A stretch of 64,000 nucleotides of DNA from a virus (IMGVR_UViG_3300044638_004964:41962-105961), one strand, 5' to 3'. Positions 3,235 through 42,700 are shown, counted from the stretch's first letter. Made by a program: numbers and translations. Notes: generated by a model not told the origin, from the sequence alone.

Positions 3235-4257
3235 ATGCTAATAACATACATAAGATCTTCAAGTTATAATAATTATTCTTACTGCCAAATGCAGTATTTT
3301 ATAACATATGTTTTGGGCCATCAGTCAACCAGCGGCAAGAAAGCAGAACTTGGAACTATTGTTCACAAGGTTATGGAAACACTAGCTGGTTTTAAAAAGT
3401 ATCACCAAGACAATCCACGTAAACATAACCTATATGTAAAAGATGATGCCTTGGGCGATGTTGAAATTAAAAAATCAGAATTATTGAAGGACAGTATCGT
3501 TGTAGACTTACTTGATAAAAGCTATAATTTTTATACATCTGGATCATCTCACGCTTTTACAAAGGGTGATAAAGATACCTGTATGGGTCTTGTGTGGGAC
3601 ACATTAAGATATAATCATGGTCAATTTGACCCAAGACACAGAACTGTAGTTGCCCCAGAACCTCATTTTGATATTCCAATTGATGAAGATTGGGCGCATT
3701 ATGAATATGAGTTTCCAGATGGTAGAAAAATCAAGGGACAATTAGCTATTAAGGGAACTATAGATCTAGTTACAGAAACAGCTAAAGACACTATTGAAGT
3801 AGTCGATTGGAAGACGGGTAGACGTTTAGATTGGGCCACTGGCGAAGAAAAGACATATGAAAAACTATGCTCAGACCCTCAGTTATTACTATACAATTAT
3901 GCCATTTCGAAGCTATTTCCTCATTATGACCACACGATAATGTCTATATTTTTTATTAAAGATGGTGGACCTTTCTCTATGTGTTTTGACAAAGCAGATC
4001 ATGGTAGATTCTTAAAAATGCTTAAGAATAAGTTTGAAGATATCAAGGCGAATAATACACCAAAACCCCTGTCACAAAGTAGAGATAGCTGGAAATGTAC
4101 TAAGTTGTGCCATTTTTACAAAAACAACTGGCCGGGAACAGACAAAAACATGTGTATATACATAGAGAATCACCTAAAGGACGAAGGTATGGAGAATACC
4201 CTTAAAAAGTGTACAAGAGAAGGTTTTGACATTGGTTTTTATTCCGCTCCCGGTTGA
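3235..4257 (+). CDS. RecB/Cas4-family PD-(D/E)XK nuclease
   Basis: A single-strand-processing exonuclease of the RecB/AddB/Cas4 superfamily is likely. Visible motifs in family order are GTIVHK (His near residue 44), GTIDLV (Asp near 178), IEVVDWKTG (the D...DxK core near 190-194) and DPQLLLYNYA (the QxxxY motif near 216). Cysteines at residue ~18 and in the C-terminal KCTKLC-x(n)-MC segment near 285-305 could hold an iron-sulfur cluster as in AddB and Cas4, though the spacing (CxxxC rather than CxxC) is not canonical. It starts one base after the kinase stop. The role in replication or recombination is inferred from location; no Cas1/Cas2 or repeat array is present, so a CRISPR role is unsupported. 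Confidence 0.85.
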   Translation: MLITYIRSSSYNNYSYCQMQYFITYVLGHQSTSGKKAELGTIVHKVMETLAGFKKYHQDNPRKHNLYVKDDALGDVEIKKSELLKDSIVVDLLDKSYNFYTSGSSHAFTKGDKDTCMGLVWDTLRYNHGQFDPRHRTVVAPEPHFDIPIDEDWAHYEYEFPDGRKIKGQLAIKGTIDLVTETAKDTIEVVDWKTGRRLDWATGEEKTYEKLCSDPQLLLYNYAISKLFPHYDHTIMSIFFIKDGGPFSMCFDKADHGRFLKMLKNKFEDIKANNTPKPLSQSRDSWKCTKLCHFYKNNWPGTDKNMCIYIENHLKDEGMENTLKKCTREGFDIGFYSAPG

Positions 4258-4269
4258 AAGAAAGATATT

Positions 4270-5124
4270 ATGAAATTAACTATTGGTATGGCCACTTATG
4301 ACGATTTTGACGGTGTGTATTTTACGATACAGGCTCTCAGAATGTATCATGATATATGTCAGTCAAATGATGTAGAATTTATAGTTCTAGATAATAACCC
4401 CAACGGTAAACATGCACAAACTCTTTCTGGGTTTGTAAATGGATGGACCGGCGGAAAAGGTAAATATATACCAAAAAATGATAGAGCTTCATCTTTTAAT
4501 AAATACAGCATAGTCGAACACGCCTCTGGGCAATACGTTCTTATTATAGATTGTCACGTACTGTTAGTCAAAGATTCTTTAAAGCATTTAATGGATTACT
4601 ATGATAGTCATCCAGACTGTAAGGATTTAATCCAAGGTCCACTACTTTACGATGATCTACAAAATTATTCCACAGAGTTTGCTCCGCAATGGAGAGGCGA
4701 CATGTATGGAACTTGGGATACAAACAGAGAAGCTCACGATGCCGGATTACCATTTGAAATACAATTACAGGGCATGGGATTATGTTCTTTTGAAAAAAAG
4801 AACTGGCCGGGAATAAATCCACACTTTAAAGGATTTGGTGCAGAAGAAGGGTACATATCTGAAAAATTCAGAAGAAATGGTGGGAAAAATATTTGTATCC
4901 CACAATTAAAATGGGTTCATCGATTTGGTCGCCCAGACGGTGTAAAATACCCATTAATTTTAGAGGATAGAATATGGAATTATTTTATCGGATGGTTGGA
5001 AATAACAAAAGACCCAAATCACGAAATGATAACATCAGCATATGAACATTTTAAGAATAAAATCCCGCCGGGAAGTATAGATAACATTTTAAATCAAGCT
5101 AAACACTTAATTTTGGAGAATTAA
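4270..5124 (+). CDS. Glycosyltransferase, GT-A fold, family 2-like
   Basis: The protein probably transfers a sugar from a nucleotide-sugar donor. The N-terminus TIGMATYDDFDGV is the usual start of a family 2 Rossmann-like domain, and the metal-binding acidic motif is IIDCHV near residue 97, a DxH rather than DxD. The later FKGFGAEEGYISEKFRRNGG segment (~187-208) matches the acceptor-side motif of polypeptide GalNAc transferase and galactosyltransferase-type C-terminal regions (GxxxEExxxxxRxxxxGG). It is separated from the main sugar gene cluster by the DnaE/SSB block, 12 bases after the nuclease gene and 2 bases before the next gene. Acceptor unknown. Confidence 0.8.
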   Translation: MKLTIGMATYDDFDGVYFTIQALRMYHDICQSNDVEFIVLDNNPNGKHAQTLSGFVNGWTGGKGKYIPKNDRASSFNKYSIVEHASGQYVLIIDCHVLLVKDSLKHLMDYYDSHPDCKDLIQGPLLYDDLQNYSTEFAPQWRGDMYGTWDTNREAHDAGLPFEIQLQGMGLCSFEKKNWPGINPHFKGFGAEEGYISEKFRRNGGKNICIPQLKWVHRFGRPDGVKYPLILEDRIWNYFIGWLEITKDPNHEMITSAYEHFKNKIPPGSIDNILNQAKHLILEN

Positions 5125-5126
5125 TT

Positions 5127-6029
5127 ATGCCCATTCCAAATAGACGAAAAGATGAAGATAAGAATAAATTTGTTGCCAGATGTATGGGTGACAAGGTTAT
5201 GAAAAAAGATTATCCAAGCAATAGCCAAAGAGTTGCTATCTGCTTGGATCAAGCAACAGCCGATTGTGACTGTGTAGAAGCTGCTGATTTTAAAATGCAA
5301 TTAGAAAATTATGGCTATGAAGAAGATGTTAATGATGACAATTTTTATATTCCAACACAGGCAGAATATGAAGACTTTGGCGAAGAAACAGAAGAGTGGG
5401 ATATTGCTGAAGCAAAACCGGGACTATGGGAAAATATAAGAAAGAAGAAAGATCGATTAGGCAAAAAATATAAACCAGCAAAGCCGGGAGATCCAGATCG
5501 CCCAGATAAAGATGCTTGGAAAAAAGCTCAGTCTGGTGATAGCGAAATGGCTATTGATCAAATAATGAAAATGAGCGATCAGATCATGGAAGTGGTTGCT
5601 AGACTAAAAACTATGCAGATACCAGTAGAATTTCAAGATTGGACAAAAGACATGATTTCCAAAGCTGAAATCTATATACAGAACGTGTATGACTTTGTTA
5701 AGTATTACGAGCCGGGTAAATATGAAGATGAGTATACAAAAGAAGTAGATGAGCCATCAGAAATGGAAACTGAAGATTCTTATGCTTCAGAATATCAAGG
5801 TCGCAAAGTGACATTAAATAAACCATTTAGAACATCAAATGGCCCAAAGAAGTTTGCAGTATATGTTAAGAATGAAAGTGGCAACGTTGTTATTGTTAGA
5901 TTTGGCGATCCAAATATGACAATCAAGAAGAATATTCCAGAACGACGAAAAAGCTTTAGAGCTAGACACAACTGTGAGAACCCCGGCCCAAAATGGAAGG
6001 CTAGATATTGGGCTTGTAAAAGCTGGTAG
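5127..6029 (+). CDS. Three-module conserved phage protein, function unknown
   Basis: I do not recognise an enzymatic function. Three pieces are visible. Residues 1-50 hold a small Cys-containing module (RCMGDKVMKKDYPSNSQRVAIC) of the kind found at the start of various phage head- or maturation-associated proteins. A middle region near 95-125 is highly charged (GLWENIRKKKDRLGKKYKP). A C-terminal module at ~215-300 runs from VTLNKPFR through KKFAVYVKNESGNVV to RARHNCENPGPK and a terminal Trp-Cys-Trp-rich tail. The middle is acidic and probably partly disordered. It is the last gene before the gap that precedes dnaE. A virion or head-assembly role is possible but rests only on recollection of the module family. 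Confidence 0.6.
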   Translation: MPIPNRRKDEDKNKFVARCMGDKVMKKDYPSNSQRVAICLDQATADCDCVEAADFKMQLENYGYEEDVNDDNFYIPTQAEYEDFGEETEEWDIAEAKPGLWENIRKKKDRLGKKYKPAKPGDPDRPDKDAWKKAQSGDSEMAIDQIMKMSDQIMEVVARLKTMQIPVEFQDWTKDMISKAEIYIQNVYDFVKYYEPGKYEDEYTKEVDEPSEMETEDSYASEYQGRKVTLNKPFRTSNGPKKFAVYVKNESGNVVIVRFGDPNMTIKKNIPERRKSFRARHNCENPGPKWKARYWACKSW

Positions 6030-6055
6030 TTGAAGTAAAGTTGTTGGTTCGGCGG

Positions 6056-6061
6056 TATAAT
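6056..6061 (+). promoter_or_regulatory. Possible sigma70-like -10 element before split dnaE
   Basis: The 78-base gap before the polymerase gene contains a perfect TATAAT. A TTGAAG lies 20 bases upstream, longer than the usual 17-base spacing, and there is no extended -10 TG. It could be a weak promoter for the polymerase operon or chance in A+T-rich DNA. Confidence 0.35.
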
Positions 6062-6107
6062 AGTTTGATAGCAGTCGCATACACATTGAAATTGACAAGG
6101 ACAATAT

Positions 6108-7712
6108 ATGTTGAATTGGTGCCCACTAAGGAATTACACTCATTACAGTTTATTGAGGGGTTTTTCAAAGCCAGACGAGTTAGCAGCAAAGTGTAAAGAA
6201 GAAGGATATACTGCTTGCGGTATTGCTGATTATAAGACAATATCTGGGGTTGTATCTTTTTATCAAGCTTGTCAAAAGAATGGGATAAAACCTATCATTG
6301 GTTGCTCATTTGATGACTGCGCTTTGTTTGCTAAGAATAGTGCCGGTTGGCATGATCTTATTCACCTAGTATCATCTATAGATGATGAAGGTAATATATC
6401 TAGCACTATTTGGTCAAACACTCTAAAGAAGGGCAATGTAATAAAGGTGTCTAATGATGCCTCACTATTTCCCATTAGTTATTATGTTAAAAAAGAAGAT
6501 GCGACATTGCATCGTATACTATTATGCTCTGAATTAAAAACCACACTTCCAAAGATTCAGAAACAAATACGCAATGGTGATCTACCAAAAGATATAGAAT
6601 ATCAATTTACTCACGACGATAAAAACGTTTGGTCAAAGGAAGAGGCACAAAAAGCAATTAGCTCAACATCATCCAAAAATCTAGATAATATTTCTAGTAT
6701 TATAAATGAGTGTGAGAGCTATAATATTCTAAGCAAGCCCAATCTTCCAAAGTTCGCTTGTCCAAATAATCAATCAGAAGAGGATTATTTGAAGGAACTA
6801 TGTCGCGTTGGCTGGAAAAATATATTAATAGATGGTGATAAGGTTTCTAAACCAGAAGATAAAGAAAAGTATCTAGAAAGATTCAAGGAGGAATTTGATG
6901 TTATTAAGGGTGCTAATCTATTCGGTTATTTCCTCATTGTTAGAGACATTATACACTATTGCGAAAGTCAAGGTTGGTTGTGTGGTCCCGGTAGAGGTTC
7001 AGCGGCTGGATGCCTAATCTCATATCTTATTGGAATCACAAAGATTGATCCAATAGAATTTGACCTACTGTTTGCTAGATTTTATAATGCTGGGCGAAAT
7101 AGTGAGGACCATATCTCACTTCCAGATATTGATATGGACGTTCCCGGCAAGAAGCGTGACGAAGTTATATCTTATCTTAAGAATAAATATGGTCATGATC
7201 ACGTTAGTCAAATGATTTCGTTTGGTAGGCTACAGGGAAGAAGTGCTATAAAAGAAGTTTTACGCATAAATGAAGCGTGTTCTTTTGGTGAAATGAACAC
7301 TATAACAAAGAGTATTCCTAACGAAGCTGAAATTTCTGACCAACTTGCCGACATGGATGACGATAATAGATCTATTATACGTTGGGCACTAATTAATAAT
7401 GCCAATGAATTAAGGGATTTTTGCCACATAAACGAAGATGGTAAGCTAGAAGGAAATTATGCTGAGTATTTTGATCAAGCTATAAAGATTGAGGGAACAT
7501 TTAAAACACAGGGAAAACACGCCGCCGGTGTTGTTATATCAGCTAAGAAATTGAATACCGTTTGCCCGATGGTTAAGCAGCGTGATTCATCTGAAAAGAT
7601 TGCGGGATTAGAAATGGCAGACCTAGAAGCTCTAGGACATGTCAAGTTTGACGTTCTAGGAATTAATTTACTAGATAAAATTATGATGATACAAGACTTA
7701 ACTGGAGTATAA
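6108..7712 (+). CDS. dnaE: DNA polymerase III alpha subunit, N-terminal half (split DnaE)
   Basis: This half carries the whole catalytic palm of a C-family replicative polymerase. The PHP-like N-terminus begins PLRNYTHYSLLRG, so the HxH metal site of active PHP domains is largely lost and the domain is short. The nucleotide-binding loop GPGRGSAAG is near residue 293, the two catalytic aspartates are in PDIDMDV near 338-344, HAAGVVIS is near 471, and the third catalytic aspartate is in VKFDVLG near 512-518. The protein stops about 17 residues later, at a point where ordinary DnaE proteins continue without a break; the matching continuation begins at 9340. AAGGA lies 6-7 bases before the ATG. 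It needs the C-terminal partner to be a full polymerase. Confidence 0.92.
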   Translation: MLNWCPLRNYTHYSLLRGFSKPDELAAKCKEEGYTACGIADYKTISGVVSFYQACQKNGIKPIIGCSFDDCALFAKNSAGWHDLIHLVSSIDDEGNISSTIWSNTLKKGNVIKVSNDASLFPISYYVKKEDATLHRILLCSELKTTLPKIQKQIRNGDLPKDIEYQFTHDDKNVWSKEEAQKAISSTSSKNLDNISSIINECESYNILSKPNLPKFACPNNQSEEDYLKELCRVGWKNILIDGDKVSKPEDKEKYLERFKEEFDVIKGANLFGYFLIVRDIIHYCESQGWLCGPGRGSAAGCLISYLIGITKIDPIEFDLLFARFYNAGRNSEDHISLPDIDMDVPGKKRDEVISYLKNKYGHDHVSQMISFGRLQGRSAIKEVLRINEACSFGEMNTITKSIPNEAEISDQLADMDDDNRSIIRWALINNANELRDFCHINEDGKLEGNYAEYFDQAIKIEGTFKTQGKHAAGVVISAKKLNTVCPMVKQRDSSEKIAGLEMADLEALGHVKFDVLGINLLDKIMMIQDLTGV

Positions 7713-7713
7713 A

Positions 7714-8319
7714 ATGGCCACTCAGTGTGGAAAATATATTGGTCAAAAATTTGGAATGTTAACTGTTCAAAAAATTACTAGTAAAACCAAAAAATCTCAT
7801 TATAGGGCCGAATGTTTGTGTGATTGTGGTAATACTGTTATACGCCGCATAGATTCTCTAGTACACGATAAATCAAAAAGTTGTGGGTGTTCAGCATTCA
7901 AAACAGGGTGCGAACATGCCTTATATAGAGGATACGAAGGTTTGAGCCTGAGACGCTGGTCTAAAATCAAAACAATGGCAAAAGATCGTGGATATAATGT
8001 CAAAATAGATATTAAATATGTCTGGGATTTGTATGAAAAACAGGGAAGAAAATGTGCGATAACTGGAGTTCCCATTATCTTCTCTAAACAAAACAAAGAC
8101 AATGTTGGCACAACAGCATCTTTAGATAGGATAGATAATAATAGAGATTATATTGAAGGAAACGTACAGTGGGTGCATAAACGTATAAACATAATGAAAG
8201 GTAATATGAATACAAATGAATTTTTAAATATTTGCGAGGCTGTAGTTGCAAAAAATAAAGAAGAAGATATATTTGAGACACCAGTACACTATACAAGAAA
8301 GATGTTTTATGGCAAATAG
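7714..8319 (+). CDS. HNH homing-type endonuclease
   Basis: A free-standing DNA endonuclease of the phage homing type. The N-terminal ~70 residues hold YIGQKFGMLTV and cysteine pairs (CLCDCG, SCGC), a DNA-binding zinc-ribbon-like module often attached to HNH enzymes. The HNH core is at ~114-165: CAITGVPI, then SLDRIDNN and GNVQWVHKRINIMKGN. It begins one base after the stop of the dnaE N-terminal half and overlaps the exonuclease gene by 11 bases. No intron core or intein splicing block surrounds it. The inference is that it, or a related element, created the split in dnaE by insertion. Confidence 0.88.
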   Translation: MATQCGKYIGQKFGMLTVQKITSKTKKSHYRAECLCDCGNTVIRRIDSLVHDKSKSCGCSAFKTGCEHALYRGYEGLSLRRWSKIKTMAKDRGYNVKIDIKYVWDLYEKQGRKCAITGVPIIFSKQNKDNVGTTASLDRIDNNRDYIEGNVQWVHKRINIMKGNMNTNEFLNICEAVVAKNKEEDIFETPVHYTRKMFYGK

Positions 8320-8989
8320 AGATTATATTATATTCGACTTTGAAACAGGCTCAAGAAATCCTCACAAAACCCAACCAACTCAGATTGCAGCAATAGCTCT
8401 AGATGGTAGAAACTTATCAGTTAAGGGACAATTTAATAGTGAAATCAAGCCCATATTTGACGATGAAGAGGCTATATCTCTTGGGCTAGATCCACTTCAA
8501 GATGAAGCTTTAAAGATAACTGGAAAAACTAGAGAGGCTCTAGCTGAAGCTCCCTCAATTAAATCAGTATGGTCTAAATTTGTAAAGTTTGTTGATCAAT
8601 ATAATTGGAAGGGTGATCCATTTTTTGCTCCAATTCCAGTTGGATTTAATATCCTTGGTTTCGATATGCACATTGTTAATAGGCTATGTAGAGAATATGG
8701 TCCTTGGGATAAAGAGCGAGAACAACAAAAACTATTTAGTAAAGTCTATAAAGTTGATATCATGGACAATGTTTTCGTATGGACAGAAAGTGATCCATCA
8801 GTTAAGTCTATTAGCATGGATTCGCTACGAGAAAGAATGGGTCTTAGCAAGGAAAATGCTCACGATGCTCTACAGGACGTTAAGGACGAGGCCAATATAT
8901 TTATCAAGCTCATGAAAACCCATAGATCTGTTTATCAGAATATTACTTTTGATAAAGCTTTTGCTAATGGTGGACTGTATGTTAAATAA
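8309..8989 (+). CDS. DnaQ-like 3'-5' proofreading exonuclease (DEDDh)
   Basis: This is the likely epsilon-type proofreader for the split DnaE. Exo I is FDFETG (residues 9-14, catalytic Asp and Glu). Exo II is in NILGFDMHIVNRLC near 110-122. Exo III is NAHDALQDVKDE near 183-194, with the His four residues before Asp that marks the DEDDh subclass. The ATG at 8309 is chosen because it gives the Exo I motif its normal distance from the N-terminus and overlaps the HNH gene's TAG; an upstream in-frame ATG at 8246 would add 21 residues lying wholly inside the HNH gene. It sits between the two polymerase halves, an unusual place, and overlaps the next gene by 11 bases. Confidence 0.88.
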   Translation: MANRDYIIFDFETGSRNPHKTQPTQIAAIALDGRNLSVKGQFNSEIKPIFDDEEAISLGLDPLQDEALKITGKTREALAEAPSIKSVWSKFVKFVDQYNWKGDPFFAPIPVGFNILGFDMHIVNRLCREYGPWDKEREQQKLFSKVYKVDIMDNVFVWTESDPSVKSISMDSLRERMGLSKENAHDALQDVKDEANIFIKLMKTHRSVYQNITFDKAFANGGLYVK

Positions 8990-9347
8990 AGTTTGCAACA
9001 AGTGTAAAAAGGAATTACCAATTGAACATTTTAGCAAACATAGCGGCAGCAATTATTTAAGACCAGAATGTAAATCTTGCAATAATTTGCTAAGTAAAAT
9101 ACGAAGCAGTCTCAGGAAAAAGCATGAAACCCCTCCAGAAAATTATCAATGTCCAATTTGCAATAGAAGCGAGCATGAGATATCTTCTGGTGGAGGAAAT
9201 AAAAAAAGCAAGTGGGTGCTAGACCACAATCACCAAAATAATAATTTTAGGGGATGGTTATGTCACACATGTAATATGGGTATAGGTTCTTTTTCTGATA
9301 ATATTGATACATTGTACAAAGCTATAGAGTATTTAAAAAATGATTGA
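8979..9347 (+). CDS. Recombination endonuclease VII-like nuclease
   Basis: A His-Me finger nuclease of the endonuclease VII family, which can resolve branched DNA but also occurs as free-standing homing-like genes in phages. Two N-terminal Cys pairs (CNKC near 6-9 and CKSC near 32-35) precede the core at ~58-120: CPIC, the catalytic VLDHNH, FRGWLCHTCN and the following GSFSDN segment. The start at 8979 overlaps the exonuclease end by 11 bases; the 3' end overlaps the ATG of the dnaE C-terminal half by 8 bases. At 122 residues it is shorter than T4 gp49 (157) and carries only the nuclease core. Whether it is a resolvase or a second invader of dnaE is open. Confidence 0.85.
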   Translation: MLNKVCNKCKKELPIEHFSKHSGSNYLRPECKSCNNLLSKIRSSLRKKHETPPENYQCPICNRSEHEISSGGGNKKSKWVLDHNHQNNNFRGWLCHTCNMGIGSFSDNIDTLYKAIEYLKND

Positions 9348-10902
9348 CTACAACGACAAGAAGACTTGGCAATTATTTGCAGAAGGTAAAACTAAGGGTA
9401 TCTTTCAGTTAGAAAGTAATCTTGGTAAGGCTTGGGCTAAAAAAGTTGCTCCAACAAATATTGAAGAATTATCTGCTCTTATTGCTATTATTAGACCGGG
9501 AACGTTAAAAGCTTTCGTTGATGGAAAGTCTATGACCCAGCATTACGTTGACAGAAAGCACGGCAGAGAAGAGGTTGTATATTTGCATGAATCTCTGGAA
9601 GAAATCTTAAAGCCAACGTATGGGGTTCTAGTTTATCAAGAGCAGTCCATGCGTATAGCTCAAAAGGTCGCTGGCTTCAATCTACAAGAGGCCGACGTTC
9701 TTCGTAAGGCCATTGGAAAGAAAAAGGCTGACCTCATGAATGAAGTTAAGAAATCATTTATTGAGGGGTCACAGCGAGTTGGAATGGTAACAAAGGAAGA
9801 AGCGGAACAGATTTTCGGATGGATTGAGAAGTCTGCACGATATGCTTTCAATAAATCCCACAGTATATCTTATGCCGTATGCTCATATTGGAGTGCCTAT
9901 TATAAAGCCCACAATACTCCAGAATTCTTTTTATCGTATCTGTATTATGCTAATGAAAAGCAAGATCCACACCAAGAAGTTTATGAACTTATTTCTGAAG
10001 CAAAGCTATTTGATATACAGGTAAGAACACCTAGTCTTGCCAATTTCGATACAAAATTTAACTTTAGACATGGGAAGATATACTTTGGGATTAAGGATAT
10101 CAAATCTCTCACTGGTAAAACTGGCGATAAATTGATAGAAGCGGTCGAAGAATCAGAAAAGCTTGCTGGTAAAAAAATTACTAAATTCTCATGGTTAGAG
10201 TTATTGATATATTTTAGCCCCAATATAAGTTCCACTTCTTTTAAAGCTTTAGCCTCAATTGGTTTTTATAGAGACTTTGCAGAAAAGATTAGTAGAAATA
10301 AAGCGCTGTATGATTATGATATATTTAAGAATTTAACACAGGCTGAGAAAACTTGGGTTTTAACTCAATACCCGACTAAAAAGTGGTCAACATTTATGGA
10401 TTGTTTGAAGGATTTGGCACCAACTAAAAAAGAAGGTGGTGGAACTAGCAAAGCCGATAGAAGACAATTTATAGAGAATGAACTACAATTATTAATAAAT
10501 CCACCATACGACTTGGAGGATGAACCAAGCTGGTTAATAGATCAAGAAATTAAATTCTTAGGCTGTCCAGTTACAATGACTAAAATTGAAACATCCGATA
10601 CTTCCGCAGCTAATACAACATGTAAAGATGTTGTTAACGGAAAAAAGGGTAAGGACTTGTGCATAGTTGCCAATGTCCAAAGAGTTTCGGATTATAAAAT
10701 AACAAAGGGTGAATCAAAAGGCCAAATGATGTCATTTCTAACAATAGAAGATGATTCATGTATCCTTGATAGCGTTATAGTATTTCCAAAAGTTAGAGAT
10801 AAGTACAAATATGTGCTTTACGAAGGAAATAATCTAATTTTCTGTGGGAATGTAGCCGACCACGACTCGTCCTTTATAGTGAACCAAATTCATGAGATTT
10901 GA
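9340..10902 (+). CDS. dnaE: DNA polymerase III alpha subunit, C-terminal half (split DnaE)
   Basis: This continues DnaE exactly where the first half ends: it opens YNDKKTW then GIFQLES, matching the DDKK...VFQLES region that in intact DnaE follows VKFDxLG by a few dozen residues. Next come the fingers (IIRPGTL, YVDRKHG, YGVLVYQEQ), then KKKADLM and the FNKSHS region, then the helical region before the OB fold. The last ~75 residues (DLCIVANVQRVSDYKIT to the end) look like the DnaE OB-fold domain. No beta-clamp-binding peptide was confidently picked out. The start codon overlaps the endonuclease VII-like gene. With the first half, the total of about 1,050 residues is near a compact bacterial DnaE. 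Confidence 0.92.
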   Translation: MIDYNDKKTWQLFAEGKTKGIFQLESNLGKAWAKKVAPTNIEELSALIAIIRPGTLKAFVDGKSMTQHYVDRKHGREEVVYLHESLEEILKPTYGVLVYQEQSMRIAQKVAGFNLQEADVLRKAIGKKKADLMNEVKKSFIEGSQRVGMVTKEEAEQIFGWIEKSARYAFNKSHSISYAVCSYWSAYYKAHNTPEFFLSYLYYANEKQDPHQEVYELISEAKLFDIQVRTPSLANFDTKFNFRHGKIYFGIKDIKSLTGKTGDKLIEAVEESEKLAGKKITKFSWLELLIYFSPNISSTSFKALASIGFYRDFAEKISRNKALYDYDIFKNLTQAEKTWVLTQYPTKKWSTFMDCLKDLAPTKKEGGGTSKADRRQFIENELQLLINPPYDLEDEPSWLIDQEIKFLGCPVTMTKIETSDTSAANTTCKDVVNGKKGKDLCIVANVQRVSDYKITKGESKGQMMSFLTIEDDSCILDSVIVFPKVRDKYKYVLYEGNNLIFCGNVADHDSSFIVNQIHEI

Positions 10903-10953
10903 TGTGTTTTTTCAGCCTGTACCTGCTAATATACAAAGATAGGAGATCAATAG

Positions 10954-11265
10954 ATGAATATATGTTGTTTTACTGGATATTTGCTAGAAGACCCTCGCAT
11001 ATCCGACATTGATGGTGTTACTCTTGCGGAATTTGTCATGGTTGTCTATACTTATAGAAAAACCAAGAGTGGAGAAAAGAACAGAATACCAACATATGTT
11101 AGATGCGAAGCTTGGCATACTGGTGCTGAAACACTAGAAAAATATGCCACCAAGGGAACTAAGCTAAATGTTCACGCTTCTGCCAAGAATGTTTCAAAAG
11201 AAGATCAAAGAGTTTTGTTTAGAATTAACGAATTCGACTTTTGTAATCAAGACTTTGAAGACTAA
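10954..11265 (+). CDS. ssb: Single-stranded DNA-binding protein, OB-fold
   Basis: The 103-residue protein has the SSB order: FTGYLLEDPRI at the start, LAEFVMVVYTY as the second strand, VRCEAWHTGAETLEKYATKG in the middle (the WxxxAExxxKYxxKG signature), then LNVHASAKN. It would coat single-stranded DNA at the fork. It is short and lacks the long flexible acidic tail of bacterial SSB, although it ends FCNQDFED, which is acidic and could contact partner proteins. It is preceded by a 51-base gap with AGGAG about eight bases before the ATG and a possible -10 (TAATAT), so it may be expressed separately from the polymerase. The stop overlaps the next gene's ATG. Confidence 0.85.
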   Translation: MNICCFTGYLLEDPRISDIDGVTLAEFVMVVYTYRKTKSGEKNRIPTYVRCEAWHTGAETLEKYATKGTKLNVHASAKNVSKEDQRVLFRINEFDFCNQDFED

Positions 11266-11921
11266 TGACCATACCAAATAATATTCTTTTAACTTGGAAA
11301 GATCGTCAAATTCCAAATTATGTTATTAGCAATATTACAAAAATCAATCCTAATATAAATATTAGCTTCTTCGATGATAATGATATTAAGAATTTTCTTG
11401 AAAGTCATTACGGAAGAAACTATGTGGATTTTTTTAATTCAATAAAGCTTGGTTATAACAAGGGCGATTTCTTTCGATATTGTTATCTATATAAATATGG
11501 TGGATATTATTTTGATATTGATATAGAACATGTTTTACCAATTTCTGAAATAGTGGATAAAGATACAACATTTTTTAGTATTATATCAGCATTACTTCCG
11601 GGACACATATTTCAAGCAATATTATTCTGTGAACCAAATCATTTAATTATCAAAAAATGTATAGATGACATGTTTAAGTTTGGCCCAAATCCTCCAATAA
11701 CTTCATCGTATATTGGTCACACAACAACTTGTATGTTTAATAATATAGGATCTTTTTTAGAAGATGTTCCAAGAGAGGGTATCTTCACTAGCAATAAAGA
11801 AAAAATATGTTTGGGAAAAGAACGTATGTATAATAGTAGATACGTATGTACTTATCAAAATAAAATAATAGCCTTTTCAAGATACAAAAACTATAATAGA
11901 GAAATGGGATTTTTAGAATGA
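11265..11921 (+). CDS. Glycosyltransferase, GT32/OCH1-like
   Basis: The protein opens IPNNILLTWKDRQIP, the start of the GT32 sugar-transferase family that includes yeast OCH1 and capsular polysaccharide enzymes. The metal-binding motif is in KGDFFRYCYLYKYGGYYFDIDIEH at residues ~66-89, with DxD as DID. At 218 residues it is a single GT-A domain with no membrane anchor. It is the first gene of the sugar cluster and shares TAATG with ssb, so it is translationally coupled to a replication gene. Donor and acceptor unknown. Confidence 0.85.
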   Translation: MTIPNNILLTWKDRQIPNYVISNITKINPNINISFFDDNDIKNFLESHYGRNYVDFFNSIKLGYNKGDFFRYCYLYKYGGYYFDIDIEHVLPISEIVDKDTTFFSIISALLPGHIFQAILFCEPNHLIIKKCIDDMFKFGPNPPITSSYIGHTTTCMFNNIGSFLEDVPREGIFTSNKEKICLGKERMYNSRYVCTYQNKIIAFSRYKNYNREMGFLE

Positions 11922-31983: not shown

Positions 31984-33732
31984 TTAATGATCCAATTCAT
32001 ATGTCCAATTAAGACTGATGGAGTATCTTCCATCTTTTGGGTTCCAACTTTCCGATGGTGGACTCAAAAAATATTTTCTAATTCCCGGCTCATTTGCTGG
32101 ACTTAGTGCGCTAATCAATTCATTAATCTGAGTTCTAATTGGCTCATTTAAACTAGGTTTCGATAACACAAAACTATTTCTATTTCTACCATATGGTAAA
32201 TCCGTATAATCTACTACAAATTCGATTCCAACGCTTCTTTGATATTCTGTGCGACCACCAATGTATTGTAAAATTGGTCCGGTTTGTCTACCAAGAACTG
32301 GAATTACAGCAAAAATATCTCCGGGATAAGTATCATTAATAGAAATATTTTCCGATAATACGCCCGACATGTAATTCATGGGACGATTATCAAATTCAAT
32401 ATTATACGTTATCTCTCCTGTGAATTCATTAACTCCCAAACTTAAACTTTTTGGTTGAGCATTTAAAACAGGGGCAACAGAATTGTCCGCTCTTTTATAC
32501 AATGATGATGTTAAACCATATTGTCCGTTATTACTAATTTCACGATATTTTGCAAGAGCATTTTGATATGGGGAGATGCCTACCGGTCCAGTTCCACCAT
32601 ATAAAGATCCGCTAGATGGAACAGTGCTTAATCCTTTAATACTTCCCTGTATTGATACTGATATAAGTGGAGCATCTAGACTACTACTAATATTCATATT
32701 ATAGTTTTCATATGCCGTTCCACTTGATAATAACCAAGTGTCAACCAAACTATATTGACCGTTTGTTTTGTCAATACTTTCAGTTCTTGAATGATTATAT
32801 CCTCCAAAAGCTTGAGAAATATTAAGAAAATCTTTAGCGAACACTTGTTCTATATCAAGGCTAGGGTATTCATCATATCCATTACTAGACTTAGCTATTT
32901 TTTTCTTTATGAAATTCTTAGCTTGTTGCCATCCCTCATATCTATGAACTTCGTTAGACTGTCCCGATGGGGCATATGTTACTTTACCTGTTGCTGAAAT
33001 ATTTCTAGTAAGTCTATAAGTTCTAATGCTTGTTATACCTATATTATTTGATGTGGTATTTGTTACTGCATTTTGATCATCTACTTCTATTGACCAATTT
33101 TCTGTAAAATCTTCTATAAAGCCACCAAACTCATTGATTAAATCTGTTTGTTTTTTTCTAACATTAGAATTGTAAAAATTGGTATTAGCATCAGCGCCGC
33201 CGGTTGCGAAAGTACTACCCAGTGATCCATCTACAAAAACTTTGTTCTGCTCGTCTAATAATACATCAGCTCTTAAGGTGATTGTATATCTACATGTATT
33301 TACATATATGCCTTCTTCAAAATTAATTGATTGAACAGTTGGATAGCATGTAATAATGGGTTCATCAGATCCACCGCTATCAGTATTTCCAGAATCAACA
33401 GAAATTGGTAAAATTTCTATTTTTTGACCATCAAGAGCAAATAATTCTCTAAGAGCGTTTTGTTTTTGTAGTATTGATCTTAATTTTTGATCAAACGGTA
33501 CAATTTGTCCGCTTGGTCTAGTATAAACGCTAACAAAAGAGCCGCTAGGCTGAATAGTATTCGCTACATATATTGGCGATCCTTCATCGTCAATAATCGT
33601 ACCAGTAAGAGTAATGTCATAGGTGCCACCAAAAGTACCAATTTTATTCCTTTGTGCGGAATAGGATATGGATACGAACGGGGTTGGTCTAATGACACAC
33701 GGAGACGTATGATTATAATATACTGTTATCAT
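31984..33732 (-). CDS. Tail/baseplate structural protein
   Basis: A 582-residue protein beginning MITVYYNHTSPCVIRPTPFVSISYSAQ and RNKIGTFGGTYDITLTGTIID, the kind of beta-rich start seen in distal-tail or baseplate proteins that sit on the tube. A Gly/Asp-rich loop (DSGNTDSGGSDEP) near residue 113 separates it from a long beta-rich body; the end (PPSESWNPKDGRYSISLNWTYELDH) is a typical closing strand pair. Its ATG shares a base with the stop of the giant gene upstream. It lies immediately after the 3,773-residue protein, where a distal tail protein would be expected, but that is positional inference. Confidence 0.6.
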   Translation of the reverse strand: MITVYYNHTSPCVIRPTPFVSISYSAQRNKIGTFGGTYDITLTGTIIDDEGSPIYVANTIQPSGSFVSVYTRPSGQIVPFDQKLRSILQKQNALRELFALDGQKIEILPISVDSGNTDSGGSDEPIITCYPTVQSINFEEGIYVNTCRYTITLRADVLLDEQNKVFVDGSLGSTFATGGADANTNFYNSNVRKKQTDLINEFGGFIEDFTENWSIEVDDQNAVTNTTSNNIGITSIRTYRLTRNISATGKVTYAPSGQSNEVHRYEGWQQAKNFIKKKIAKSSNGYDEYPSLDIEQVFAKDFLNISQAFGGYNHSRTESIDKTNGQYSLVDTWLLSSGTAYENYNMNISSSLDAPLISVSIQGSIKGLSTVPSSGSLYGGTGPVGISPYQNALAKYREISNNGQYGLTSSLYKRADNSVAPVLNAQPKSLSLGVNEFTGEITYNIEFDNRPMNYMSGVLSENISINDTYPGDIFAVIPVLGRQTGPILQYIGGRTEYQRSVGIEFVVDYTDLPYGRNRNSFVLSKPSLNEPIRTQINELISALSPANEPGIRKYFLSPPSESWNPKDGRYSISLNWTYELDH

Positions 33733-36700
33733 TATTTTCCTCTGATACGCAGATTAAGTGTGTCAGTATCTGTTCCTATCCCACTAGCAAACAGAGTCAA
33801 ACCAGAATTAGATATTACCGTTGGATCTGGACAGTCGGTAAATAAATACAGGCCAGACGGTATGCCCGACGCAAAACCCGTTATAGAGCTAGTGTACATT
33901 CCTAAATTATTATACACAAATGCGTTATCATCAACATTTGTATACATATTCATATTATTATCAATATCTACAGCTTTACCAAAATTGGTTAATATCATAC
34001 CTTGGCTAATCGGAGTACCATACATATACTGGCCGTCTATCGCAAAAATGTACGGTCTGTGCTGAATAAATCCCTTAGTTACTGGATCTTGCCCAGAAGC
34101 TTCAAGGAAAATCTCACCTTGATTATTACTATAAATAACACCACTAGCAAGATATGATTTGTTATTATCGCTATTATTCTTAAAGCTGATATTAATTGTT
34201 GGATTTCCGTCGATTAAAGTTTCTCCAAAAACCCTAGCATTGAGGAAACTATCCTTGCTGGGGCCAGATGCTGGCTGTTCTCGTAGCATAACGTCTAAAG
34301 CGTAGGATGCTCCAGCACCATTTAGTGGCTGAGTTGATGAATGATTTCCGCTTATGGCATACTGATGAAATGGTGAGCCTACGACAATCGAATAGTCTGA
34401 ATCGGTTCTATTAGCCATGTCTATAGCCACAGAATCCCCATAATAACTATTAATACGTTCTCTTGAATTGTACCCTTCGGCAACAGATTTTTGAACTAAT
34501 GTCCACTTTTGTTTTCTTGTTGGCCAATCAATAATTCTATTTTCAAAAGTAAAAATAGCACCATTATTTAATGATATATTTCCACTTGTTCCAAAGGCAT
34601 CTCTATTGGATTTACTTCCTAAGTCATAGAATGATAAGTAGTAATTGTCGAATTCTTTGTTGAAAAATTTCACGCCAAAAGAACCAGAATTAACAATTAT
34701 ATGATTTTCATAATCATGTCCGGGAGCGCCAATAACCATTGTATCATTATCAATAGCAACATCGTAGCCAAATCTATCACCTACGATTGAGTTTCCAGAG
34801 TTGCCGCTGCCAATGTTTATACTTTCTGGTCTAAGTTTTTCAGTAAATTCCCAAGGAGTTTTTGCTCCAAGAAGGCCGCTACCATTGTAGGTTTTTTCAA
34901 AAATATAAACTGATCCTGCGCCACCATTATATCCAAGTTGAATACCAGAAGATAATCCTCCACTAACATAGTGATTCCAAGGATTTATAGATTCATCAGA
35001 AAATGCAGCAAATGGTGAGCCAACGACCAATTTATTGTTATATAGATCTATTGAGTAACCAAATAGATCGCCGGGGTATCCAACTGAAAATCTATCAAAA
35101 TTTAAATAATCGTATCCGGTCTTCTTCATTAATTCTGGCATACCTCCAGCGAAAGAAGCGTCCTCATACAATACGCCTTCTATGACTCCACTAAATTTAG
35201 CTGTTGCTCCATAAGCACTTTGTAGATTTGCAAACTCTGCTATTTTTTGTTTTATAATTTTTTGAATTTCTTCAAAATCCATTGCATTATTATATGGTTG
35301 CCTTGTTCTTAAAACATACCTTGGATCATACTTGGATTCTTTATCGTCAAAATTTGATAATAGCGATTGAGACGTAGAGCCATTATTAAATAGATAATTA
35401 ATTCCACTACTATTATATAGTGCGTAGTATTTCTGAGGACTTCCCCTTTCTGGAGCTATAATTTTCGTCATGGTGTTAAATTGTCTACCAAAATTACTAT
35501 TTCTTGGTGACGTTGGATACATACTTGTTAGAAAACTAATTGTATTTTGTGAAATTAAATCATTTTCGTCTATCATACATGGACCTTGAACAAAGCTAGA
35601 ATCAGCAAGAACTGTAATTCTTGATCTATTATTTCCAGCTAAGAAAGATGATATTGATTCTTGCGCTGCTACCACTGGTCCATCAGCAATTAATTTGTCA
35701 TTCATTTTGTTTTCAATGCACCTATCAGAAGAACAATATTTTGTATTATCTGTGCTAATAGGTCTAAAGGCTGAAAATGTTATAGTTTCTTCTGGAATAG
35801 CTTCTCTGGTTTTAATCTCATCGAAACCATCAAGAATTGGGATCTTTGTAACTTGTGTCAAAACAGTTTCTATAACTGGAATTGATGCTCCAGAAACTGC
35901 TAATAGCCTAGTGCTTTTTGGTGCGTAAGTTTTATTTTGATTTAATAATCTTTGATTGTTGCCATCAAAGTACATTGTTAGTGCGGACATTCCACTCGGT
36001 ATTTGAACATTTATAGAATATGTATTGACAAATCCAATCGTAGCTGGAGATAAACGTCTAAAAACGCCCACTGGTGCGTTTTCAAGAGTAACGAATTGAT
36101 CACTATTAATATCTAGATCTACTATTGGGGAAGACCTAGGCATAGTTGGATATGGTAAACCAGCTTCTGTATTGGCATTTGATATAAAGACATTTAATGG
36201 CTCTGTTTCACTACTAGTTTCAGAAACTGTGTCAACAAATATTTTATATCCAGATCCAGCAATTACTGGGAAACTAACCTTCGCAACGCCGCTTTTCATT
36301 TGCCAATATCCAATTAACTTTCTTCTGGTTGCCTTTATGGAATCATCTGCATAGCAAACCCTATTATTTATATCTTGAGTTTTGATAGGGACAAATCTTA
36401 TCTGGCTTATTAATTGATATGAGGTTATCTTTGTTTTTCCATTGCCAGATAGATCTGATGATTCATTAAATGCTAAAGTTTGAAATCTTGTTTGTGCAAC
36501 TGGATATATATTATCTTCATCTAAAAAGTGTGGTGTGATTGAAATACCCAATAGTGAGCAAAGTTGTGATGCTGTTCTAGCTTTACTTTGCACACTGGAA
36601 AGATTATTACCATCATATGTTATTACTAGTTTTTTATTTCCGATACTTAACCAATTCTTAATGGAGTTGATTTCCTCGTTATTAGGTAGAGTATCTGGAT

Positions 36701-39700
36701 TTGCTATCCAGCAAATATCGTGTGTTGAATATAGTGTTTGTACATTTACATCAACGGTGTGTCCAAGGTTAATAAATAATTGATTTAAGTGAGAGTCATT
36801 GTAACCGTCTCGGAAATTTGTTCTATTCGTCCATCCACCAAGTTGTGCTATATTAGATTTTAAATTTTCAGTATTATAAGCTATGTTGGCATAAAAGTTT
36901 ATATTCCTATCACCTTGACCATTATATAGCTGTGATCTAGATTCTGTTACAACGCCAGCGATTAAAATAACTTTTGACGATGAAGCTTCATAGTTTTGTT
37001 GGGCGCAATATGTTGAAAAATCATCCAAGACAAATCTTTCTATAACTGTTCCTTCTCTAGATGTAGCAGATGACTGTAACAAAGAATCTCTATCATCAAA
37101 AAGCTCTGGATCAAAAAATCGCCCAAGACTATTTGTATTTCCATAATTTGTATTTAGATATGTATAATTTCCGCTACTCGATGACCAGATAAACTCAATA
37201 CCACTTCCGATGTTTGTATTATCAAAATTGGTAAATGATGTTGATTCACTTCGTGTTTCATATCTATATCTTGGAAAAGATTCGTATCTTGCTGGAATTG
37301 CTGGATATGTTATAGTATTTACAACAGATTCTGCCGCAACTAATAATGGAATTGGTTCTAAATTTGTAAGATCATATCTTGGTGCTGATATGTCTGATTG
37401 AGAGCAACAATCTGGAGTAAAAGTCTTGAAAACTAATGGCCAATTAACTGGATAAATAATCGTTGGTCCAGAACATCTATCACATTGCTCTAACCATTCC
37501 GCTCTTAAATCGCCATTGTGTATAAGTGGCATTTGACATTCGTGATTAAGAGGATTATCCCACATATCTTTTAAGTCGCATGGCATAGTATATCTATAAT
37601 CTGGCAAATGCATTCTAATATCAGCAACGCCGTAGCCTCTTAAAGTTTGTGGCTGAATATAAGTTGATGCTCCTTGTGATGGTCTAAAGGATGGAATTAC
37701 ATTGAAATCACATCCAGAAACTAAAGCTTCGTATTCATTTCTAGCTGGATGAAGTCTCATTCTAGATTTTAATCCAGATAAAATTTTATTAATTATATTA
37801 TTTGATTTTAAGTAAATTCCATTATTTTCCCATAATGGATCATTGCCAACAAGCACTAGATTCCTATCTCCAAGCTCTAGCCACTTTATAAGTTTATCTA
37901 AAATTTCTTCGCTGAGAGCGTCGATTTCTGGCGTAATAATAAAAGCTAATCCAGCTTCTTTTGGTATATTTAAATCTGAAAATTCTGTTTTTTCGAAATT
38001 ATAATTTTGAAAAATTTGAGACAAGTATCTAAAATGTCCACTATTTTCTGGAGAACTAATGCTTTCTTCTAAGTTTCCGAACTTTGTGAATTCTACAACT
38101 TTATTATGAGGATAATAATTTCTAGACTCAAATAATCTTACTGCTCCAGCATTGGTATTTGATTGCCAACTTGACTTTATAGGTCCATTTAAACCATCGA
38201 TATTTAATGGTTCATTATATCCATCATTCTTATACCACACGTTGCCATCATCCCACTGATTTAAACTATCAGTTGGTGAACCAAAAGCTACGATAGTACC
38301 GTCTTCGTTAACAGCAACACTATATCCAAGTCTTGGTGTTGGAAGGAATCTTTGCGGGATAAATTCCCAAGTTCCAAGTATAGACAAATCTGAGTATCTG
38401 AATGATTTGATATTTATATATTCATTGATATTTAAGTATCTTCTAGCTTCGAATCTTTCTGTTGTATTTAAAGCAACATATAGAGTTTTACCAGCTTCTA
38501 ATAAACCAAGACTTGCAACGTTAGTTATATATTCTAATCTAAGTTTTGCGTATCTACCTATGCCACCGCTTTGAGAACTCTTTAGATTGATCCAAGGGCC
38601 AATGTCATTGTATAACCTTACTTTTTCATCGTTATTATATTCATAAATTTCACAAGCGTTATTGATATAAGGTGATCCAATGGCTATTACTTCTGTATTA
38701 TTACTAATTGCTACAGCGTGTCCGAATCGGTCTGGAATACCATAAGAATCTGCTGGAGAATCTATTTGTTGAATTAAACTCCAAGTTCCACTTTCTTTTT
38801 CAAATATATAAACTTTACCGCCACTAGTTGGCACATAATTAAATTCACCCAAATTAGGATTGAAGTATTGACTTCCAACACCAGATGTGATGTACTTTAC
38901 TTGATCGTTAAGCACAAGTCTTCCAGTATCAAGAGTATGGTTAAGGATATCTTGACTCATTTTTATCCAATTTTCAGCATCATTAAATGTTGGAACAAAT
39001 TCTGTAATCGCTCCAGAAGATTGAGTTCCATAAAAATCAGATACTCCACTTTCAAAACTATATTGCTGATAGTATGAAATAAATTGATCTATTGCGCCAC
39101 CACCATCTCCATTTAAAGACTCTTTACCTAAAGACGCACTATTGTCAACATAGAATCCAACTATGGGTGGTATATTATTATTTATTAAGTCTTCATTATA
39201 TGGGAATGCTTCATTAAATGCTTCTTTAATTCCACTAAGTATTTTCTCTGTTTGTAAGTCACTTCCTTGTCTACGATGAATCCTCTTTTTGGTAATGAAT
39301 GTTGGTTTTGGATTTGGGAATTCTTCTGATGGTGCGCTTTCAGTATCGTCAAGGGTTGGTTCCAGTATTATAAGCTTTACATCAAATGCTGTTGATGGAC
39401 TTGAAAAATATTTAAAGATTACGTCTTTATCTTTTATGCTATTGAGAACATCGACGTATGTTCTAGTGCTTTTTCCTTGGCCTACAATTGGTGTAAATTC
39501 ATCAGTAAAAATCATTAATCCAATTTGAACACTTGATGGATTTACGCTTTCAAACGTGCGCGACCATAGTGAACTTGGTCCACCAACAACGAGAACTTCT
39601 TTATTTGGTTCATGTAAAGAATTATTTCCAGAATAAATTGCTAAATCTAAAGAATGTCCAAACTGTCTACCTTCTTGTCCAACTTTCCAATATCTTTCTG

Positions 39701-42700
39701 TGATTGGCTCAAATCCAGCAACTAGAGTTCTTGTTGCTGTTGTGTAATAATCTCTGATATAACCAGATGGCAAATTAATTTGTTCTTCTAATACCCAAGG
39801 AGATTTATGTTCATTGATATTTAATGACCAAGAATTTCCGCTGGGCGCTGGTAGTCTTCTATAAAGAAATACTGTTCCAGCATCTTCAAGGACATAATTT
39901 ACTGGATCAGAAACACTACTAAGTGGCGAACCAATTGCTATTAGATCATTGTTTATAGCAACTGATTTACCATATTGAGCATTAACTTGTCTTCCACTTG
40001 CTACATATGGTTCATCGCCAATTAATTTAATTCCAGATTGACCAAATCCTTGAATATAGTAATTTATATCTTCTATTTCTGGTGGAACTGATATATAGTT
40101 GTTGCTTCCGGTTTTTCCAGTAATAAAAACTTTATATGGAGCATTTGGTATTAGATCTGTATATTTTCTAATACCATAAAAATGTCCACTATAACCTATT
40201 GGTGAATTAAATCCGCTAGTAGATAGATTGGTATATGTATTTTTTGCTCTAAAAATTCCACCATCAACGCATAAGTCGTTATACCAAGTTTTATCATGAA
40301 TAGTGAAACTGCTTTCTTGACAAGAATTTTCTGTTCCACAATTACCGTAACATATTAAGTCTACGCCGCGAATTTCGTCATTAGCACTTAGTGTTGAATA
40401 TTTATTATCATCAACTGATATGTTCTTTCCAACGTTATCACTATTCCAGCTAATTCCGGCTTGTTGTGCAGTGTCTTGATTGTATGCTAAATAGTTTATT
40501 ACGAATAATGGTAGACTATCTTCTAGTTTAGTAACTGTGTAATCTTGTGCAGCAACGTATAAATTTAAAGAATTTTCTGCGCTAATAAAGACATCTCTTA
40601 GCTCTGTATATAAAGACATTCTACTGTTTGGATAACGGCTATCTCCAGCAGTATTTGAGAATGCGTATAGACCTAATGAGCTAATACTGTAATCAGATAT
40701 TGGTTTATTACTTAAGAATAAAGAGATATTTCCAGAGGTTGTTGGTGATGATAGTGAGTTCTTGGTAAATAGATTGATTCCCTGTTCATCGAACTGATTA
40801 AATCTACCGTCAACGAATAATATTGGACCAAAAGATGGAGAAGCTCCAAAAATATCGAACGATGAGTAGTTGCCATCTGAACTATCAATGGTTCCAATAT
40901 TCAATGTGTAAAGCGGTAGAGTTCCACTTGATAATACCGCTCCAGAACACATTAGATTCATACCGTATCCATTGTTCCAAACGGAAGATGCTGTTGGAAT
41001 GGGCATTCCGCTGGAAAATAAATTCAACCCACCAACTCCACTTGCATTATCCAATCCATACGAATACAGATTTATGTTTGCCAAGGATATAGATTCACCA
41101 CTACACACAAGATTAAATTGAGTATTATTACTAGGACCGGCTGTTACGCTATTAGCTTCAACGAGAGCATTTTCTAGTCTAACATTTGCACTATGGATTT
41201 TAATAGTAGCATCAAATGGAGATCCACTAGGATATACTAAGTCATATTGCAAAAACATATCATTAATATCAGTAGAATAATACTTTGTATCAAATTCTGA
41301 TGTGTTTCGCTCTTGATCAAAATTAGCCCAAGGCTCGCTGGTGTCGATTAAATCGTTAAAATCAAAAATACTTGATAGTTTTTCCCAACAACCAGATGGG
41401 GCTAAATAGTGGGTGTGTCTATTAATTAGACCCCAATTTACTTTGCTTGGTCTATCAACAGGCTCTTGATTTTTAGTATATAAACTTACAATTAACTTGG
41501 GGCCGATATTGCCATCATTCCAAACTACATTGTCTAATGTTTCGTATTCAATTATTGTATCAACAACCATAGCGCGTTCTGCAAAGTCGTATCCTCTTGG
41601 TAAGGTTTTGCATATTCTTGGTGGCAAAGACAAGAAATTTGGATTTGCATCTGGAATATCAGATAGATTAAATCTTAGGAAATCATTTTCTATTTGAGTG
41701 TGATAGCATACTCCAGATGTTGGAACGCTTGATGGAAGAATAGAATCGGTTGTCAGGTTATATGCCGATCCATCGTGTTTTAATCGGTGAATTATATAGT
41801 CAGCACCAACTCTTTTTGTGAATGAGTTGTATGCTGGTGAAAATGCGCATATCTTAAAAGCTCCAAGATTCCATTCTGATGTATCATCATCTACATATTG
41901 CCATAATTTAAATTCATCTTTATCATAACTCTCGGATGGATTCCAAAATTTATGCTTAATGGTTTCAAAGAAATGCTCGACTTGCATTTGTTTGTATAGT
42001 AAATCGACTTGTCCAGCATTATTATCTATTAAGTTGGTTCCGTCATCGTTATATGTAGAGATGCCGATATCAGTGATAAATAAATTACTACCAATGCCAC
42101 TGCCATCACTGTAGCCAAACTTTAAATGACTATTACCAGAGGTCAATATGAATGATGATGATTGATCTCTCAGGTGATGGAATGTATTTGTTGAACTTTT
42201 TTCGTTATCTGTATAAAGCTTTAGCTTATTAGATAGGTTGTCATTGTATGTTAAAATAACAGATATTGGGTATTGATATTCGTAATAATATAAATTATCT
42301 TGAACTTTTTTAATCGATCCATTTGAAGCTCTAGCATAACCTGTTAAATGGCCATTTTCATATCCCAAACTAAACTCTAGATTTTGACCACTATCATATT
42401 TAGCAAATATTATACCACTATTCCATAGATTATATCCAACGCCACTCATATTGATATCTGGACTAAATCTTGCAAAAATAGAGAATCCACTAACAGTATC
42501 GATGTTTCCAAAATCAATATAGCCAGTATTACCAGAAACTCTTACGGCATTGTCATACGAATCTGATATTAATCCATATAAAGAATCATTCTCGTAGCCA
42601 TCTATAGAAGTCCAGTCTATAGTTTTATATGGTGTATTTTCTGAAAATAGCGATGTTGAATTGAATCTTAGTCCAATGTTTTTGATTTTATTATACGATC

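Follow-up and report, generated by a model that had tools for sequence, protein, structure and literature searches.

The window analysed here is a stretch of 64,000 nucleotides (nt) of viral DNA, corresponding to positions 41,962–105,961 of the virus record IMGVR_UViG_3300044638_004964, which is linear and 105,961 bases long. On its plus strand, the alpha subunit of DNA polymerase III (DnaE) is encoded as two halves, and the gene for a DEDDh (DnaQ/epsilon-like) 3'-5' exonuclease lies between them. We think it likely that these genes specify a permanently multi-subunit Pol III core, composed of DnaE-N, an epsilon-like protein, and DnaE-C, in which alpha is split at the boundary of the palm and the fingers. 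DnaE-N (6108–7712, 534 amino acids (aa); Pfam DNA_pol3_alpha, 2.3e-69, and PHP, 1.7e-19) comprises a PHP-like domain that has lost its metal motifs, the thumb, and the palm, with the catalytic residues D340 and D342 (PDIDMD) and D515 (VKFDVLG). The exonuclease (8309–8989; Pfam RNase_T, 1.3e-13; PHROG 'DNA polymerase exonuclease subunit', 9.8e-25) begins at the ATG at 8309, correcting the mechanical call of a TTG at 8246. DnaE-C (9340–10902, 520 aa; Pfam DNA_pol3_finger, 7.7e-49) holds the fingers, with the motifs RKAIGKK and NKSH, the helix-hairpin-helix (HhH), and the OB-fold region.

In the alignment with E. coli DnaE, the window N half reaches residue 564 and the C half begins at residue 590, which places the break at the palm/fingers boundary. 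DnaE-N stops 16 residues past VKFDVLG, and DnaE-C opens inside the DNA_pol3_finger domain. The spacing between KFDxLG and FQxES, counted by hand on an alignment that includes intact DnaEs from phages and bacteria, is 37 residues for the two window pieces together, compared with 42 for Moorella phage MTATph1 and 50 for Salmonella, a linker deficit of about 5–13 residues. On the intact PHROG profile phrog_405 (1190 positions), the N half ends at 614 and the C half starts at 626. Thus, hardly anything apart from a variable linker is missing, and an earlier note on this DNA was right to state that little or nothing of the protein is lost at the split. The halves were modelled separately with AlphaFold2, each as a single chain. 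The DnaE-N model has a mean predicted local distance difference test score (pLDDT) of 85 and a predicted template modelling score (pTM) of 0.84, and its top Foldseek matches are the Pol III alpha subunits of E. coli, Taq, and Mycobacterium tuberculosis, with E ~1e-30. The DnaE-C model has a pLDDT of 90 and a pTM of 0.79, and its top match is also Pol III alpha (2.5e-21). Each half is therefore predicted to fold as its part of DnaE. The PHP domain, palm, thumb, fingers, and three catalytic aspartates expected of a C-family polymerase are all found, and D340, D342, and D515 are invariant. What is missing is the usual, though not strictly defining, single-polypeptide state of the family.

The arrangement is constant among viral relatives. 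Scanning IMG/VR with the C half gave 80 loci (clade 1), and polN, exonuclease, and polC follow one another in every locus long enough to judge. Through L079, a distant member with 44% identity, a second clade of 80 loci was reached, all of which contain polN, usually an open reading frame (ORF) of about 60 aa, the exonuclease, and polC. This small ORF, present in most clade 2 loci (6051–6233 in L079), matches phrog_1648, of unknown function, with E = 3.9e-5. The contig L187 led to a third clade, in which complete loci always have the order polN-exo-polC. When the exonuclease was used for the scan by itself, polN was directly upstream in 79 of 79 loci and the full order was present in 74; four of the remaining loci are cut by the end of the contig, and the fifth, L355, lacks a polC within 2.4 kb. 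Once identical exonuclease sequences had been removed, 227 distinct loci were left. All 227, from three clades and down to about 42% identity, carry polN, exonuclease, and polC as three separate ORFs, and the split is at the same position in each, which is far from chance. No fused or intact polN/polC was found among them. By contrast, in 79 of 80 loci from the bacterial and archaeal genomes of GTDB, a single ORF covers the N and C parts, and an exonuclease of this kind is not found nearby. The exception is L187 itself (JABXKB010000087.1), which was binned in a Lokiarchaeota metagenome-assembled genome. It shows polN-exo-polC together with neighbours like those in the window (PD-(D/E)XK-like and glycosyltransferase-like), so this contig is probably viral rather than archaeal DNA.

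Two further genes lie between the halves in the window. An HNH-type endonuclease gene (7714–8319, plus strand; PHROG endonuclease, 8e-24, and HNH, 5e-21; no Pfam match) occupies the N/exo junction, and an endonuclease VII-like gene (ATG at 8979 to 9347, plus strand; Pfam Endonuclease_7, 3.4e-15) occupies the exo/C junction. The five genes named in the earlier note are thus all present as described, by ORFs, Pfam, and PHROG. The two nuclease genes are optional. Among the 74 clade 1 loci with an uninterrupted N half, both junctions are empty in 25, only N/exo is filled in 8, only exo/C in 28, and both in 13, giving 41 loci with an occupied exo/C junction. Loci with neither nuclease are still split, and most empty loci have gene overlaps of 8–11 nt. 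The contents of the N/exo junction vary (HNH genes, FkbM methyltransferases, and another uncharacterised family), while those of the exo/C junction are mostly Endonuclease_7, with one NaeI-type gene and one HNH_3. Relatives of the window HNH gene are present in L003, L022, and L073, and there is a different gene or none elsewhere. Pfam matched four FkbM members in the junction set; by eye, the four FkbM-type genes that take the place of a nuclease at N/exo are those in L016 (5286–5957), L044 (5392–5988), L052 (5323–6003), and L076 (5083–5679).

Alignment with empty sites places the ATG of the window HNH gene at the exact position of the exonuclease ATG in L002 and others, and the ATG of the endonuclease VII-like gene at the exact position of the DnaE-C ATG in L012, L018, and others. 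In both cases, the nuclease gene thus starts where its downstream neighbour used to start, and that neighbour now begins inside the end of the nuclease gene (overlaps 8309/8319 and 9340/9347). Both genes show the sporadic presence, conserved site, and empty-site alleles of free-standing homing endonucleases. Since polN-exo-polC is constant while the junctions fill independently and optionally, the HNH and endonuclease VII-like genes are independent of each other, optional, and of the homing type, and they entered a gene that had been split before, at its two seams; their proteins, judged by sequence, are putatively active in homing. In a gene put in pieces by a homing endonuclease, relatives without the endonuclease have the intact gene, whereas here the 25 loci lacking both nucleases are split all the same. 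In the window, the Shine-Dalgarno pairing at the start sites is -1.1 kcal/mol for the exonuclease and -2.4 kcal/mol for DnaE-C, versus -5.9 for the HNH and -6.2 for the endonuclease VII-like gene. A weakening of ribosome-binding sites by invasion, which this would fit, shows no clear trend across the family and was rejected.

These observations bear directly on how the split arose. The earlier note had proposed that an insertion of about 1.6 kb, carrying the exonuclease along with the nucleases, split an intact gene, and it suggested a search for relatives uninterrupted at the same site; none exists among the 227 loci. A single mobile insertion of this kind in the present lineage would explain why the exonuclease has an endonuclease gene on each side, and there are known cases of phage genes split by free-standing homing endonucleases (PMC2988022). 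Nevertheless, we regard it as very unlikely, because in relatives missing either or both of the nucleases the polymerase is still broken by the exonuclease gene, because each junction is occupied independently of the other and by differing genes, and because the split is common to three deep clades. As a recent event, it is contradicted by the nuclease-free relatives and by the sharing of the split among these clades. The note took the constant part, the exonuclease, for the insertion. Its account of a near-seamless split into two polypeptides that are expected to associate stands, and the co-transcription of the exonuclease with the halves that it envisaged agrees with the co-directional, overlapping neighbouring genes.

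A tree of the joined halves with intact DnaEs, made by a quick search and including two long-branched rows, puts the split proteins in one group, with a value of 100 in the Shimodaira-Hasegawa-like approximate likelihood ratio test (SH-aLRT). No intact protein falls inside this group, so a single origin of the split DnaE would be the simplest reading. No intact ancestor near the split clade was found in the IMG/VR or GTDB scans made, and the identity of cultured phages is only about 28–38%. How the exonuclease first came to lie between palm and fingers cannot be read from the present data. Among close relatives, the window N half is 95% identical to L003 and 79% to L002, and the exonuclease (97%) and C half (94%) are nearest to L002. 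Parts of the core thus appear to have been exchanged between relatives, as if near the junctions.

Are the halves rejoined? We consider it highly improbable that an intron, an intein, ribosomal bypass, or a programmed frameshift joins them. The earlier note had reported neither intein blocks nor an intron core, and this holds. There is no Rfam match to a group I or group II intron at E ≤ 5 in 5800–11300, and no intein-like sequence was seen on inspection of the N tail (LLDKIMMIQDLTGV, followed by the stop) or the C head (MIDYNDKKTWQLF). The break has neither the N- and C-intein blocks with a +1 Cys, Ser, or Thr of a split intein nor a ribozyme core between exons. Since the genes overlap by 8–11 nt in most empty relatives, there is no room in these for an intron or an intein. 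Frameshift fusion was rejected, as the frame of the exonuclease relative to N is not fixed, with gaps of -14, -11, -8, -7, -1, 11, 15, 16, and 17. Furthermore, any joining would need to include or skip the entire exonuclease. In favour of rejoining, the family does use protein trans-splicing, at another site. L049, L051, L113, L114, and L168 carry a split intein in DnaE-N between GPGRG and SAAG (GPGRG-CFLPDTRV... and ...YNVEGLGVHN-SAAGC), and in L114 its halves are at about 4186–4462 and 5211–5409, with a separate ORF between them. A break in a catalytic motif is therefore accompanied by protein splicing and the palm/fingers break never is, which fits with the latter being tolerated as two subunits. 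L168 also has, in its DnaE-C (3634–6021), a contiguous in-frame insertion of about 240 aa that looks like an intein (RPG/CISGDTKISI...VIVHN/CLEA).

All three core genes are under strong purifying selection. The ratio of nonsynonymous to synonymous substitution rates (dN/dS) is 0.01–0.11 for N, the exonuclease, and C in comparisons with unsaturated dS, and the palm aspartates, the finger motifs RKAIGKK and NKSH, and the DEDDh residues of the exonuclease are conserved. A dnaE gene in pieces and surrounded by selfish elements might be taken for a broken remnant, in a virus copied by a host or other polymerase. We give this next to no chance: the pseudogene reading was rejected on dN/dS, the catalytic motifs are intact in both halves, the split state is constant over the 227 loci, and neither PolA nor PolB was found in the virus record. 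The record also encodes a DnaB-type helicase, a Toprim (DnaG-like) protein, RecA, and SSB. There is no match in it to the beta clamp family PF02768 of Pfam, so processivity may use a host clamp or an unrecognised one.

The exonuclease has the complete DnaQ-like DEDDh set, D10, E12, D119, H185, and D190, and it is the only RNase_T (DnaQ-like) match in the 106-kb record. The motif patterns match in most loci of each clade; that of motif III is unmatched in 12 of the 23 clade 3 loci. In clade 1, to which the window belongs, the PHP motifs HxH and DHG are absent in 66 of 66 loci, while DHG is kept in 133 of 138 clade 2 and 22 of 23 clade 3 loci. PHP-based proofreading is thus unlikely in the window's clade, which leaves the exonuclease as the only visible candidate for the proofreader there. 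It might instead be a separate nuclease, for example for trimming RNA or DNA, that merely happens to be located at this site. Its sequence relatives include ExoI-like and RNase T-type enzymes, and PHP motifs that could perhaps proofread are retained in clades 2 and 3. We find this alternative unlikely, since the gene is between the polymerase halves in every locus, its PHROG family is that of a polymerase exonuclease subunit, no other DnaQ-like gene was found in the record, and in clade 1 it is kept under the strongest constraint where the PHP motifs have been lost. Its identity as a Pol III epsilon, which binds alpha and removes mismatches, is suggested by the neighbourhood and the PHROG annotation. 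Several clade 1 sequences have a possible clamp-binding motif, QQKLF, at exonuclease residue 139, which is a lead only.

We suggest that N, the exonuclease, and C assemble into a polymerase core that would work in the manner of E. coli alpha-epsilon, except that alpha is made as two chains. Translational coupling and co-translational assembly may be provided by the overlaps between start and stop codons in polN-exo-polC, and the exonuclease would serve as the proofreader in the window's clade, the PHP metal-binding motifs being lost. The homing-type nucleases would have entered the junctions at the downstream start codon, leaving the core proteins unharmed. For the three proteins, association, activity, proofreading role, and coupling are inferred. 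Several points weigh against this multi-subunit core. Its support comes from sequence comparison and single-chain models of the halves, not of an assembled complex. The split DnaE is the only polymerase found in the record, but the linear contig may be incomplete, and a second polymerase could be missing from it. The exonuclease has few solved relatives by sequence (PolC exonuclease, 2.8e-5; ExoI, 0.0012), and its presumed role in proofreading is argued from motif, neighbourhood, and elimination. In clades 2 and 3, where the PHP motifs are retained, the exonuclease may not be the sole proofreader. Finally, the Shine-Dalgarno strength of the exonuclease and C genes is not clearly different between invaded and empty loci.

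A stronger version, which we put forward as a doubtful conjecture with some small chance of being right, is that a three-chain polymerase cannot do without the exonuclease as a structural bridge, which would dock at the palm/fingers seam and not only be tethered to PHP; the gene order would then reflect ordered co-translational assembly of N, exonuclease, and C. If this were true, the seam-docked exonuclease would couple synthesis and editing by a geometry unlike that of any known replicase.

The nearest parallels are phage genes split by free-standing homing endonucleases, such as nrdA/mobE of phage Aeh1, gene 43A/43B of Aeromonas phage 25, and gene 60/mobA of T4, whose split products are reported to co-purify or function together (PMC2988022). 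As in these cases, an essential replication gene is divided into two ORFs, the break contains an endonuclease gene, and start and stop codons overlap. Unlike them, the constant gene at the break here is a proofreading-type exonuclease, the split persists without an endonuclease, and it is a fixed feature of a C-family polymerase in three deep clades. Group 2.2 jumbo phages have a split minimal Pol III alpha, whose genes lie far apart, alongside a PolB (Iyer et al. 2021, PMC7824862). They likewise make a C-family polymerase as two phage proteins; here, however, the halves flank the exonuclease, a PHP-like domain has been retained, and the record yielded no PolB.

Bacterial DnaE is a single alpha chain whose gene lies apart from dnaQ, and in PolC the exonuclease is fused, nested within the polymerase chain by insertion in the PHP domain. 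Both combine a C-family polymerase with a DEDDh exonuclease, as here, but neither has a separate exonuclease gene placed between two parts of alpha, with the palm on one side and the fingers on the other. DnaE is also encoded by two genes in cyanobacteria, and, as in the 'fractured genes' with split inteins, the halves are ligated by split-intein trans-splicing, at a site other than that found here. The window break has no intein, and the split inteins of its relatives are at GPGRG/S. Two cultured phages have DnaE in two coding sequences, Cellulophaga phage phiST (gp044/gp045; L170, 3680–7280) and Alicyclobacillus phage MMB025 (L089, 3150–7512). In MMB025 there is an endonuclease at the conserved RKAIGKK region, with no Rfam intron there. 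Unlike the window gene, both are broken elsewhere, with no exonuclease between the pieces, and they fall outside the split clade on the tree, on long branches. DnaQ occurs as an internal domain or as a separate protein, according to a 2026 survey of bacterial polymerases (PMC12926913). In the passages searched, neither that survey nor a 2024 survey of phage polymerases (PMC11348598) mentions the polN-exo-polC arrangement. No description of it was found in the open-licence PMC papers searched, and it is apparently undescribed.

A bacterial-type replicase is usually treated as an indivisible alpha chain, yet it seems that many widespread, uncultivated viruses have for a long time run theirs as two subunits, with the gene for the proofreader between them. 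These genes offer a natural, minimal, and testable system for the communication between palm and fingers, the coupling of proofreading with synthesis, and the guidance of assembly by gene order. They are also an example of how homing-type nucleases can lodge at safe sites, the seams of an essential gene that was split beforehand. Annotation pipelines are liable to label the halves as partial or broken polymerases.

Elsewhere in the same record, outside the window, other ORFs look like HNH or endonuclease VII genes (L175, 11708–12364; L176, 946–1479; L177, 3748–4404). By eye, these adjoin nucleotide metabolism genes like thyX, GMP reductase, and nrdA, and, judged in the same way, the genome seems rich in nucleases of the HNH and endonuclease VII types. 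The minus strand of the window has an ORF of 3773 aa at 33732–45053 and other long ORFs of 1186, 1553, and 2185 aa.

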